DNA of 64,000 bases. It comes from Rhizobium leguminosarum. Lineage in GTDB: Bacteria > Pseudomonadota > Alphaproteobacteria > Rhizobiales > Rhizobiaceae. The stretch's first letter is position 1, and every line of letters starts with the position of its first letter. The stretch is from NCBI RefSeq assembly GCF_001679785.1, contig NZ_CP016286.1:4474501-4538500 (forward strand). The letters run 5' to 3'. This document shows positions 51,405-54,980 of the stretch, piece after piece. The notes beneath the pieces were generated by a model. The model saw nothing but the letters and a program-made list of their open reading frames with translations. It did no database searches and was not told the DNA's origin. A program made the position numbers and the translations under genes.

Positions 51405-51547
51405 GGGAACCCCGCAGAATTGTTCGCGGCCTTTTATCGCAAGTTTCTGACAGAGGGAATAATCCAGAGGGCAATAGTTTTTCGTATCTGTCGCGGAGCC
51501 GGACGTCGTTACCGTCTGGCGCACGCAAGCTTGAGATGAGGAACGGC

Positions 51548-52087
51548 ATGCAAGGCGATGAGATCGTAGACTTGATCGGCCGCGTCGCACTCGGCGATCG
51601 CAGGGCTTTCGTGGCCCTCTACAATCAGACCGGACCGAAACTTTTCTCGATCTGCCTGCGTATCTTGAAGGATCGCACGGAAGCCGAAGAGGCTCTGCAG
51701 GAAGTCTATATCAGCATCTGGCAACGCGCTCGCAGCTTCTCCGTCGCCTCGGGTTCGTCCTCGGCATGGCTGGCCGCAATTGCCCGCAACCGGTCGATCG
51801 ATGCGCTGCGGGCGCACAAGCCCGTCGCCGACGAATTGGACACGGTCTACGATCTTGCCGATGCCGGACCCGACCCGGAAATGCAGACGGTGACCAAGGA
51901 TGAAGGAAGGCGGATTGACACCTGCATGGAAGAGTTGGAAGCTGATCGTGCGGTCGCGGTGAAACGGGCTTATGTCGAAGGGCTGAGCTATCAGGAACTG
52001 GCCGATCAGTTTGGTGTCCCGCTGAACACGATGCGGACCTGGCTCAGGCGCAGCCTCTTGAAACTGAGAGAGTGCATGGAACGATGA
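51548..52087 (+). CDS. ECF sigma factor (SigK-like)
   Basis: 179 residues. Sigma region 2 (about 18-85, [36 protein letters not shown]) and region 4 (about 125-175, [27 protein letters not shown]) are clear; no region 3. It overlaps the anti-sigma gene by four bases. GAGGAA precedes ATG 51548 (ATG 51536 is an alternative). The pairing with an RskA-like anti-sigma and a downstream fasciclin gene resembles mycobacterial sigK. Confidence 0.9.
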
Positions 52088-52803
52088 CATCGCCCGACAA
52101 AAGCAAGGGAGACCGCTCCCGCGACGAGGTTCTCGCCGGCGAATATGTGCTTGGCGTCCTGTCGTTGCAGGATCGCCGGGTGGTGGAAGAGCGCATACGC
52201 CACGACCGGCCCTTCGCTGCGATCGTCAGCCGCTGGGAAACCAACCTCTCCGCCTTCAACGACGAGTATGAAGGCGTCGCTCCGAACCGGGAAACCTTCA
52301 AGCAGATCGAGGCGCGGCTGTTCGGCGATGGCCAAAAGCCCCCCTCTTTTTCTCAGGGGCTGTGGAATTCCGCCGTTTTCTGGCGCTCGCTGAGCTTCGC
52401 CTGCATCGTCGTCGCCGTCAGCGCCGTCATCTTCGCCTCCGGCGTGGTGCCCGAGCCGCAGGGTCCGGCACCGCTGGTGGCCTCGCTTTCGGGCCAGAAC
52501 AGCACCATCAATCTTCTCGCCTCCTACGAGCTTCAGAGCGGCCGGCTGAAAATTGTTCCGGTCGCCGCCGGCAAGCCGGAGGAGAAGTCGCTGGAACTTT
52601 GGCTGGTGCCGGGCAGCGGCATGACGAGATCGCTCGGCGTCTTGCAGCCGGGCGAAAGCGGTGAACTTGTCATTCCCGCCGAACTGCGCAGCATGGTAGC
52701 CGATGGCGCAACGCTTGCCGTCAGTCTCGAACCCTTCGGCGGTTCGCCGACCGGCCAGGCGACTGGTCCGGTGATCGCAAGCGGTCCCCTGCGCCGACCA
52801 TAA
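52084..52803 (+). CDS. RskA-like membrane anti-sigma factor
   Basis: 239 residues. An N-terminal cytoplasmic anti-sigma segment (about 14-80, VLAGEYVLGVLSLQDRRVVEERI), one transmembrane helix (about 101-120) and a periplasmic RskA domain with LELWLVPGSGMTRSLGVL and LAVSLEPFGGSPTGQATGPVIASG. It should hold the ECF sigma until a signal triggers regulated proteolysis. The start overlaps the sigma stop (ATGA), giving equal expression. Confidence 0.9.
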   Translation: MTSPDKSKGDRSRDEVLAGEYVLGVLSLQDRRVVEERIRHDRPFAAIVSRWETNLSAFNDEYEGVAPNRETFKQIEARLFGDGQKPPSFSQGLWNSAVFWRSLSFACIVVAVSAVIFASGVVPEPQGPAPLVASLSGQNSTINLLASYELQSGRLKIVPVAAGKPEEKSLELWLVPGSGMTRSLGVLQPGESGELVIPAELRSMVADGATLAVSLEPFGGSPTGQATGPVIASGPLRRP

Positions 52804-52939
52804 GCGCGCCGGCTATAATCGCCCCGGCCGTAAATTATGTCTCCTCTCTGAAACTCTTGGCGCCGCCTTCCGTAGTTCGAAATGTCCGGACGACGCTAAG
52901 GCATAAAGCCGGCGGACGGTTTCCGGTGAGGAGAAAATC

Positions 52940-53494
52940 ATGATCAAGTCCGTATTGCGCGGCTTCGCGCTCGCCACCGCCATGTCCGCCGTCGCCTTTG
53001 CCGCCGCGAAAAACCCGACGGTCGGCGGTGCGGCGATGTTCGATAGCAAGAACATCATCGAGAACGCCGTGAACTCGAAGGATCACACGACGCTGGTCGC
53101 CGCCGTCAAGGCAGCCGGCCTCGTCGGCACGCTCGAGGGCAAAGGCCCCTTCACCGTCTTTGCGCCGACCAACGAAGCTTTCGCCGCCCTGCCGAAGGGC
53201 ACTGTCGATACGCTGCTGAAGCCGGAAAACAAGGCAACGCTGACCAAGGTTTTGACTTGCCACGTCGTTGCGGCCGATGCGATGGCCAATACCGTTGCCA
53301 AGATGATCAAGGATGACGGCGGCGAGCACGACATCAAGACCGTCGGCGGCTGCGTGCTGAAAGCCAAGGAAAACATGGGCAAGATCACCCTGACCGATGA
53401 AAACGGCGGCGTCTCCCATGTGACGATCGCCGACGTCAAGCAGTCGAACGGCGTCATCCACGTCGTCGACAAGGTGCTGTTGCCGAAGATGTAA
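52940..53494 (+). CDS. Secreted fasciclin (FAS1) domain protein
   Basis: 184 residues: a signal peptide (about 1-22, SAVAFAAAK) and one FAS1 domain (about 40-184) with LVAAVKAAGLVGTLEGKGPFTVFAPTNEAFAAL and the C-terminal SNGVIHVVDKVLLP. FAS1 proteins mediate surface adhesion; in Sinorhizobium a fasciclin protein (nex18) affects symbiosis, as I recall. The ATG follows GGTGAGGAGAAAATC. Likely regulated by the upstream ECF sigma, by analogy with SigK and Mpt70/83. Confidence 0.9.
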   Translation: MIKSVLRGFALATAMSAVAFAAAKNPTVGGAAMFDSKNIIENAVNSKDHTTLVAAVKAAGLVGTLEGKGPFTVFAPTNEAFAALPKGTVDTLLKPENKATLTKVLTCHVVAADAMANTVAKMIKDDGGEHDIKTVGGCVLKAKENMGKITLTDENGGVSHVTIADVKQSNGVIHVVDKVLLPKM

Positions 53495-53733: not shown

Positions 53734-53772
53734 GCGTCCTTAGCGCGTCTGAAAAGACGCGCGGCGCTCTAT
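53734..53772. repeat. Hairpin repeat, family 3, copy 4 (inverted)
   Basis: AGCGTCCTTAGCGCGTCTG with AAAAGACGCGCGGCGCTCT: the CGCGTCT/AGACGCG stem seen near 26,534 and 32,085, here right after the 108-bp repeat, and overlapping the end of the kinase gene. Confidence 0.6.
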
Positions 53773-54845
53773 CGGGCCGCTTCGGCTCTCGGGAAGACGA
53801 GGGAGACACTCATCCCGGCGTCAGGGGACGAGCTGACTTCAACCTCGGCGCGGGCATTCTGTTTCAGCGACTGCACGATCATCGCGCTCAGCTTTCCCGG
53901 CTGCGGCCAAGTCACATCCTGGGGAAGACCGACGCCATTGTCAGCGACGGTGATCCTGCACCCGGTATCGCCGACCACGCAGCGGAGCGTGATCTCGCCG
54001 CCATCACGCCCCACGAAGGCATGCTTCAGCGTATTGGTGAGAAGTTCGTTGATGACGAGCCCGGCCGGCATGGCGACATCGACCGAAACCGGCCAGGTAT
54101 CGACCTTCATGTCCAGCCGGATCCCTTCCACGGCATGGGCCGCCATCACCGAGGCGGCAATCTGGCTGACATAGGTGCCAAGATCGACCGTGGCGCCTTT
54201 CTCTTCGTCCGACAGCGAGCGATAGAGAAGGGCCAAGGCTTCAATCCGCCCGGCAAGCCGTGCAAACCTCTCGCTTTCCTCATTCTGCTGAGCATTGCGC
54301 GCCTCCATTCGGATGAGCGCTGTGATCATCTGAAGATTGTTCTTCACACGATGCTGAAGTTCCCGCAGAAGGACATCTTTCTCCGTCAGCAGTTCGCTGA
54401 AGCTCTCAGCGGCCGTCGCCTCATTTCGGGCAGCAAAGGCCACCAGTCGGAAAAGCGGCGTGTCGTCGTCGTCGACGATCGTATTCGACCAGACATCGAT
54501 AATAACGGTGCTCTCGGGTTCGGCGGCGAGCGAGAAGGCGCCAATATACTCCTCCGCGGAGGTCACCACGGCTGTGAGCGGCACCTCTCCGGAAACGGCG
54601 GTGGAATTCAATTCAATGTCCGGCCAGGGTTTTCCCTGGACCTGGGTTGCCCCGAGCGCCGTCAGCCGTTCGAATTCGAGATTGACGTAGATCAGCGGTT
54701 CATTGCCACCGAGTTCGGAGACAGCCACCGCAAACGGCACATGATCGAGAAAGTGTCGAAACCGGTCGTCATCAAGGGCTTCGGCAAGATGGGGCAAGTT
54801 GCCGACGCCTTCCGGCGAAATCGGCTGGTCTTTGCTATCGGTCAT
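53769..54845 (-). CDS. PAS-containing sensor kinase of the HisKA_2 family
   Basis: 358 residues. A PAS domain (about 25-145, FLDHVPFAVAVSELGGNEPLIYVNLEFERLTAL) precedes a HisKA_2 module with LLRELQHRVKNNLQMITALIRME (phospho-His near 168) and a HATPase (NELLTNTLKHAF, DNGVGLP). No membrane helices, so it is a cytosolic sensor. Kinases of this kind often feed PhyR/EcfG-type stress signalling or phyllosphere light responses, but no response regulator is adjacent. Starts at ATG 54845 or 54848. Confidence 0.87.
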   Translation of the reverse strand: MTDSKDQPISPEGVGNLPHLAEALDDDRFRHFLDHVPFAVAVSELGGNEPLIYVNLEFERLTALGATQVQGKPWPDIELNSTAVSGEVPLTAVVTSAEEYIGAFSLAAEPESTVIIDVWSNTIVDDDDTPLFRLVAFAARNEATAAESFSELLTEKDVLLRELQHRVKNNLQMITALIRMEARNAQQNEESERFARLAGRIEALALLYRSLSDEEKGATVDLGTYVSQIAASVMAAHAVEGIRLDMKVDTWPVSVDVAMPAGLVINELLTNTLKHAFVGRDGGEITLRCVVGDTGCRITVADNGVGLPQDVTWPQPGKLSAMIVQSLKQNARAEVEVSSSPDAGMSVSLVFPRAEAAR

Positions 54846-54980
54846 CAAATATTACTCGTGGACGCGGCTGCTCCGGACAGCAGGAGAACTAGGGTTGCTT
54901 CAAAAACTGCAGGGACGCAAGCGCAATCGACCCCGGTCAGGCCATGCAACGCGTTTCTTAACTCGCCGATTGTTCGAGAT

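Follow-up and report, generated by a model that had tools for sequence, protein, structure and literature searches.

A 64,000-nucleotide stretch of Rhizobium leguminosarum DNA (contig NZ_CP016286.1, positions 4,474,501 to 4,538,500 of the forward strand), here called the window, carries genes for an extracytoplasmic function (ECF) sigma factor, an RskA-like anti-sigma factor and a secreted FAS1 (fasciclin) protein, one after the other in the same direction on the plus strand. We consider it likely, with a probability of about 0.82, that the three genes form a SigK-type switch in which the RskA-like protein would hold the sigma factor, the freed sigma factor would drive the FAS1 gene from a predicted promoter box, and the output would most likely be an envelope response to oxidative damage. 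A module of this kind, resembling the mycobacterial sigK-rskA-mpt70/83 genes, had been proposed in a sequence-only reading of the window. The module is real, as all three genes were confirmed by Pfam and are conserved together in the genus. Its elements are, in window coordinates:

51548..52087, plus strand: SigK-like ECF sigma factor, 179 aa (Pfam, NCBIfam, PDB match, tree, cysteine pair)
52084..52803, plus strand: RskA-type anti-sigma factor, 239 aa (RskA_C, AlphaFold2 model, profile-profile match)
52849..52874, plus strand: predicted ECF promoter of the FAS1 gene (genus footprint, position, order-wide and held-out counts)
52940..53494, plus strand: secreted single-domain FAS1 (fasciclin) protein, 184 aa, likely target (Fasciclin domain, 114 bits)

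The sigma stop and the anti-sigma start overlap by exactly ATGA, the four bases already described, with the anti-sigma ATG at 52084 and its stop codon at 52801-52803, and the FAS1 gene lies 136 nt 3' of the anti-sigma gene. Among 19 sampled genomes of the genus the anti-sigma gene was found in all 19 and adjoining sigma and FAS1 genes in 18 (one FAS1 gene hits a contig end); only L020 has neither, both having been lost there. Among the 120 order genomes sampled, a Fasciclin match was detected in 67, an RskA_C match in 55 and both in 37. The two domains lay within 8 kb of each other in 29 of these 37 genomes and within 2 kb in 26, and FAS1 was directly downstream on the same strand in 24. This clustering across genus (18/19) and order (29/37) indicates that the adjacency is not chance. 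The gene order was FAS1-sigma-RskA in G286 and, by coordinates only, probably also in G057 and G188.

FAS1 proteins are widespread and their role in bacteria is unclear. The one encoded here is the sole Fasciclin match in the window's genome and has a Sec-type N-terminus or signal peptide as judged by eye only. Its cysteines Cys107 and Cys138 were kept in 17/17 genus genomes whose alignment covers both positions. Cysteines 107 and 138 are absent from the more distant L023.

Kinship of the pair with SigK and RskA

The sigma protein contains regions 2 and 4 of the ECF type (Sigma70_r2, 58 bits; Sigma70_r4_2, 50 bits). An alternative in-frame ATG at 51536 would give 183 aa, and the ATG at 51548 was kept on the alignment of 18 genus loci. 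The best match in the Protein Data Bank (PDB) was SigK of Mycobacterium tuberculosis (4nqw, E 2e-26) with both redox cysteines aligned. This pair, C130 and C180 in the 183-aa numbering, lies 50 residues apart near the C-terminus and was present in 76/76 SigK-like tree rows versus 0/8 ECF paralogs from the window's own genome in the tree. A C133/C183-type pair is reported for 94 percent of the ECF18 and 56 percent of the ECF19 sigma factors (PMC7509140). M. tuberculosis SigK is ECF18 in that paper and its anti-sigma factor is AS19-1 in PMC7406223, so the group names are inconsistent.

A tree of 79 sigma rows was built with mycobacterial SigK taken from 7 of 80 loci and five long rows excluded (L183, L306, L309, L313, L321). 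Mycobacterial SigK joined the main set of FAS1-linked alphaproteobacterial sigma factors in a starred clade with support of 99/94. When the own-genome paralog L309 was retained one further row entered the SigK clade, and in a first quick tree the clade had a support of 92 and was not starred; these shifts indicate that long-branch effects are in play. Placement of mycobacterial SigK with the FAS1-less SigK-like sigma factors of the order, a group named after the first tree was seen, was rejected by the approximately unbiased (AU) test (p 1.3e-7). A single clade holding all FAS1-linked sigma factors and SigK was likewise rejected (AU p 0.017). A second FAS1-linked group stands apart, indicating that sigma genes acquired or lost their FAS1 partner on more than one occasion.

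The anti-sigma protein matched RskA_C at 70 bits against a cut-off of 29.4, and its translation contains the RskA C-terminal pattern (LELWLV...LEPFGGSP) that had been pointed out from the sequence. The AlphaFold2 model (mean predicted local distance difference test score 83) shows four N-terminal helices within residues 13-80 that make up a helical cytoplasmic domain, one membrane helix (97-120), in line with the single hydrophobic helix noted earlier, and a periplasmic beta-sandwich (131-235). A profile-profile comparison matched mycobacterial RskA over nearly the full length (probability 99.1, E 1.3e-18). BLASTP against mycobacterial RskA, comparing two single proteins, gave a weak match (E 0.038). 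A PDB search with the single anti-sigma sequence gave no match up to E 1, and with the profile it gave five weak matches, the best at E 0.088. In a Foldseek search with the model of the RskA_C beta-sandwich the best match was apo Cu,Zn superoxide dismutase (SOD1; E 1.4e-3, TM 0.67 by target), a likeness that is under firm significance and is not relied on. Together the PDB match, the tree, the cysteine pair and the RskA profile match bear out the proposed kinship with mycobacterial SigK/RskA, and the pair very probably works like SigK-RskA and is homologous to it.

The predicted promoter box and the joint loss of sigma and FAS1 genes

The predicted box consists of a -35 element TGAAACT and a -10 element CCGTA separated by N14 at 52849-52874, with 65 nt between the box and the FAS1 start codon. 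CTGAAACT and CGTA were conserved upstream of FAS1 in 18/18 aligned genus loci while the spacer was variable. A relaxed form, GAAAC-N15-17-CGT located 120-450 bp before the FAS1 domain, was counted in the 120 order genomes. It was found before 28 of 30 RskA-linked FAS1 genes, before 10 of 35 unlinked ones with RskA in the genome and before none of the 42 from RskA-free genomes (reverse-strand controls 0, 4 and 0, respectively); 7 of the 114 order FAS1 matches are missing from these counts (one same-genome unlinked, six without RskA). Counted by genome, the box was present in 33/37 with RskA and FAS1 versus 0/29 without RskA. Spacing peaked sharply at 16 (12/78) and 17 (39/78), all other spacings from 8 to 26 reaching at most 2/78, and for FAS1 genes in genomes without RskA no spacing rose above 2/64. 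Since the species are related, p-values overstate independence and family counts are the safer guide: the box was found in 14/18 families with RskA versus 0/21 without, and in families with both kinds of genome the contrast held in 4/5, neither kind having the box in the fifth.

With the pattern fixed, the box was present before 13/13 held-out order FAS1 genes in 12 genomes (8/8 linked, 5/5 unlinked), with reverse-strand matches in 0 linked and 3/5 unlinked. This set came from a new phylum sample with multi-FAS1 repeats and short fragments left out, and several of its members belong to families already sampled. In five genomes (G019, G023, G050, G121, G124) the box stands before an unlinked FAS1 gene and there is no linked one. 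Upstream of 77 sigma open reading frames, some of which are the same gene in overlapping loci, the box matched 4 times on the forward and 5 times on the reverse strand. A shared promoter before 51548 and 52940, for which the sequence-only reading had suggested a test, was not supported: only 52940 has the box. A CCGGACG-type repeat seen by eye upstream of both the sigma and FAS1 genes was lost on alignment.

Loss of the two genes was also coupled. A FAS1 homologue was present in 93 of 100 genus genomes; 7 had none, and 2 (G338, G403) had only a paralogue of ~50 percent identity. The sigma gene was broken or absent in 8/9 FAS1-lacking Rhizobium genomes versus 0/13 FAS1-bearing control genomes picked from 91 (Fisher p 2.8e-5). 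In G002, G330 and G396 the best whole-genome sigma match was a 26-28 percent paralogue, and in G338, G354, G398, G400 and G403 the sigma gene was truncated, frame-shifted or had stops. Synonymous divergence (dS) of the anti-sigma gene was lower between G403 and the intact relative G009 (0.154) than between G403 and G398 (0.211), G398 was about equally near G009 and G403 (0.225 and 0.211), and G338 belongs to a different lineage, as does the G002/G354/G400/G364 group. The dS values and separate lineages suggest that several of the FAS1/sigma losses were probably independent, judged on pairwise dS rather than on a species tree. G200 has no RskA_C match and a short Fasciclin fragment only (contig C1:5236713-5236784; 24/123 profile positions), which would fit joint loss.

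The anti-sigma gene retained a full open frame in six FAS1-lacking, sigma-less genomes (G002, G338, G354, G398, G400, G403). The pairwise ratio of nonsynonymous to synonymous divergence (dN/dS) of these orphans was 0.12-0.33, within the range of intact genomes, and takes in time before the sigma loss. Their intact state may reflect recent loss or a second role. By locus, intact anti-sigma frames with the sigma gene broken or gone and FAS1 lost are found at L020, L427, L428, L429, L430 and L431.

The box, the way it tracks RskA and the co-loss lead us to infer that the FAS1 gene is under control of the adjoining sigma factor, as the sequence-only reading had supposed. On this comparative evidence the sigma factor would, across the order, own FAS1 through a box of its own.

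Possible output of the module and alternative explanations

A gene for methionine sulfoxide reductase B (MsrB) was found 3' of FAS1 on the same strand within ~1.1 kb in 9 of 20 linked order loci with the downstream side covered, and all nine of these FAS1 genes carry the box. Further cases of MsrB after FAS1 are G082, G114 and G053 (G053 having no box), as well as four phylum-sample members of the window's family. MsrB also stands beside unlinked box-bearing FAS1 genes in G023 (downstream) and G261 (upstream). Within the covered 1.4 kb downstream, MsrB was present for 8/20 FAS1 genes with the box and 1/2 linked ones without it, versus 0/18 in genomes without RskA and 0/11 unlinked without the box; these counts rest on 20 box-bearing FAS1 genes, several minus-strand loci falling outside the coverage. 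In all 13 MsrB N-termini inspected an RR motif precedes a hydrophobic stretch, the arrangement of twin-arginine translocation (Tat) signals. In G050 and G121, from another family, the genes after FAS1 encode cytochrome b561 and a molybdopterin oxidoreductase (Oxidored_molyb), a pair that we take to be reminiscent of MsrPQ. The Tat-type MsrB neighbours, together with the redox cysteine pair of the sigma factor, suggest that the module's output is an envelope response to oxidative damage.

In the mechanism that we propose, the N-terminal helices of the RskA-like protein would hold the sigma factor at the inner membrane. A periplasmic-side signal, perhaps aided by oxidation of the sigma cysteine pair, would free it, either by regulated proteolysis or because RskA, as published, can act as both activator and inhibitor. 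Once free, the sigma factor would read the box at 52849-52874 and drive the secreted FAS1 protein. In relatives the box also stands before distant FAS1 genes and often before FAS1 followed by a Tat-exported MsrB, so the output would most likely be the response to oxidative damage in the envelope. A wider picture is tentative and, to us, somewhat doubtful: an alphaproteobacterial SigK regulon that spans the order and has a box of its own (TGAAAC-N16/17-CGT) would combine FAS1 and Tat-exported MsrB for periplasmic methionine-oxidation repair, gated by the sigma redox cysteine pair, with the RskA-like protein kept for a second job where sigma and FAS1 are lost.

Even for mycobacteria, the signal opening SigK is described as unknown (PMC7509140). 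A compact module with one FAS1 gene, and sister species that are naturally sigma-less, make both the FAS1 role and the SigK signal testable in Rhizobium, which is harmless and easy to handle. The MsrB link, if true, would offer oxidants acting on envelope methionine as a concrete candidate signal, and intact orphan anti-sigma factors would be relevant to the published idea that RskA does more than inhibit.

A number of results weigh against the SigK-type switch. The sigma protein fell under the cut-off of the NCBIfam SigK model NF007228 (136 vs 226 bits) while passing NF009167 (281 vs a cut-off of 265), and Pfam RskA_N (PF22618) gave no match in the anti-sigma factor at E 0.1 while two mycobacterial RskA proteins match. 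As the curated models disagree in this way, we file the pair as a divergent branch, not as SigK proper. The -10 element was relaxed from CGTA to CGT after the order sequences were read. The strict form (GAAAC-N14-18-CGTA, 600 bp) was found before 13/30 linked, 8/35 unlinked and 1/42 no-RskA FAS1 genes, with controls of 1, 1 and 0 on the reverse strand and 0, 0 and 0 for the reversed pattern. The other linked box matches cluster at 210-326 bp, but two of the 28 (G108, G136) are at 376-384 bp and may have arisen by chance, and four of the 37 order genomes holding both genes have no box. Reverse-strand matches arose in the unlinked classes (4/35 and 3/5), five of the seven in one family. Outside the order the box was detected before only 4/9 linked, 4/36 unlinked and 0/22 FAS1 genes without RskA (reversed-pattern control 3/22 in the class without RskA and 0 elsewhere), which shows that it is not universal. 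G364 has lost FAS1 with the sigma gene intact, which may be a first step of loss. No MsrB was seen beside FAS1 in the genus loci, whose flanks reach ~0.6-0.9 kb past FAS1, and the only MsrB match of the window's genome is far from the module; the oxidative-damage role is thus an extrapolation for Rhizobium.

Other explanations were weighed against the same evidence. The FAS1 box could be read by another ECF sigma factor, such as the general stress factor EcfG, with the neighbouring pair linked by position only. GAAAC/CGTA does resemble many ECF promoters and is two letters away from the EcfG consensus, GGAAC/CGTT. However, the EcfG pattern GGAAC-N15-18-CGTT was found in 0/107 order FAS1 upstream regions and, outside the order, in 2/36 unlinked ones, 42/42 FAS1 genes lack the box in genomes without RskA, most of which in the order should have EcfG, and FAS1 is co-lost with the neighbouring sigma gene; we regard this explanation as improbable. 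Read-through from the sigma operon, with FAS1 as its third gene and the box minor or silent, would suit the common strand, the 136-nt gap in the window and the 24/37 genomes with FAS1 directly downstream, but it is hard to reconcile with the retention of the box where FAS1 is remote from the sigma gene and where FAS1 lies upstream of it on the opposite strand (G026, G268), and we give it very little weight.

Hardly more credible is the view that the likeness to mycobacterial SigK is convergent, or that the rhizobial cassette was recently transferred from actinobacteria. It is favoured by the ~30 percent identity of the sigma protein (P0001) to the SigK fragment, by the differing letters before mycobacterial sigK-linked FAS1 genes and by the long branch (1.38) of mycobacterial SigK. 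Convergence is opposed by the starred clade, the rejected FAS1-less grouping, the common cysteine pair and the near-full-length RskA match, while box-bearing FAS1 genes in 14 families of the order speak against recent transfer. The earlier phrase 'ancient or transferred' is upheld for its first half in part by this spread; transfer between phyla is a possibility. The sequence-only reading had also pointed to plant roots, and a root-adhesion switch, with FAS1 an adhesin made on plant contact, is possible though unlikely. The FAS1 protein Fdp of Rhodobacter sphaeroides is adherence-associated and its relative Nex18 of Sinorhizobium meliloti is nodule-expressed (PMC7561615), but oxidative damage is what the Tat-type MsrB neighbours and the cysteine pair of the sigma factor indicate. 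The two roles are compatible and not exclusive.

Related systems, neighbouring genes and further matches

The reading of the module as a SigK-RskA-FAS1 cassette is ordinary, right and largely known in kind. MPT70 and MPT83 are FAS1 proteins, in agreement with the MPT70 match that was found. The mycobacterial SigK-RskA-MPT70/MPT83 system has in common with the window an ECF sigma factor with a C133/C183-type pair, a co-transcribed RskA and FAS1 targets (PMC7509140). The Rhizobium module differs in its sigma-anti-sigma-FAS1 gene order, in having no box before the sigma operon and in its one FAS1 gene with no lipobox by eye. Published work describes an 'mpt83-sigK-rskA minimal cassette' in mycobacteria and Yersinia with the SigK site conserved even in Yersinia (PMC7509140). 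The Yersinia enterocolitica cassette, taken from that description only, has the same three parts in a Gram-negative and a SigK site before FAS1, and differs in that FAS1 comes first. As the cassette is already in print, the likeness is less surprising than the earlier note took it. In the literature searched no description of a rhizobial SigK-RskA-FAS1 module was recognised, which does not establish its absence from print; apparently new within that literature are the form that spans the order and has a box of its own, the connection with MsrB and the intact orphan anti-sigma factors.

The 80 mycobacterial sigK loci included 10 with a FAS1 match, giving 13 FAS1 upstream regions. CCGAAT was found in 12/13 of these regions (reverse strand 2) and GAAAC...CGT in 0/13, and CTCCGAAT occurs in 10 of the 12 CCGAAT-bearing regions printed. 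The dyad C(C/A)ATCC...CCGAA, which is the mycobacterial consensus, was present in 5/13 (reverse 0). The genus footprint GAAACT/CGTA is unlike the CCGAAT of a mycobacterial-type SigK box; the order sample was scanned for the GAAAC box and the EcfG pattern. Between mycobacterial and order FAS1 boxes the -35 letters differ and the -10 letters CTCCG are alike.

The ECF11 pair RpoE-ChrR mediates an alphaproteobacterial ECF response to reactive oxygen, of the sort proposed for the module, but had a lower PDB score (74 vs 96 bits). ChrR is a zinc anti-sigma factor (PMC7406223), whereas the one in the window is of the RskA type. Fdp and Nex18 are FAS1 proteins of related bacteria, Fdp with an export signal; unlike the window's gene, Fdp is reported under the Prr pathway, with no SigK-RskA partner in the parts of the paper covered (PMC7561615). 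An R. sphaeroides FAS1 gene, RSP_1409, which may or may not be Fdp, is raised in a photooxidative-stress table (PMC7074977).

Upstream of the sigma gene lies a divergent amino-acid-kinase gene, argB by look, and between the two a further element was found:

51430..51464, no strand assigned: block conserved in the interval separating the sigma gene from the divergent argB-like gene on the minus strand (18 genus loci aligned, by eye)

This block is probably a promoter or leader of argB and/or the sigma gene and not an ECF box. Downstream of FAS1 a HisKA_2 histidine kinase is encoded on the minus strand (53769-54848). HWE/HisKA_2 kinases adjoin the module in the window and in two relatives from another family (L269:3298-4812, by Pfam; L270:3796-5385, by eye).

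In the window's own genome the strict pattern had three forward and 0 reverse matches, and the reversed-pattern control two and four. A wider own-genome regulon was rejected, as the two other matches (L030, which by eye lies immediately ahead of a citrate-synthase-like gene, and L031) look like chance. In family f33 (L055, L058, L205, L206, L208, L267, L268) FAS1 is unlinked to RskA and the box pattern was found on both strands upstream of FAS1 in 5/5 genomes sampled; in two of these genomes the FAS1 gene precedes genes for a cytochrome b561 and an Oxidored_molyb protein. A secreted DUF7282 protein is encoded divergently from the sigma gene at L106:400-816 and L107:2242-2649, with the box upstream of the sigma gene on the DUF7282 strand, and its gene is a possible further regulon member. 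An identical-scoring weak Sigma70_r4_2 match was found in a 547-aa open frame at 11 places on seven contigs of G000 (C1, C2, C3, C4, C5, C7, C8), and this repeated frame is probably an insertion sequence.

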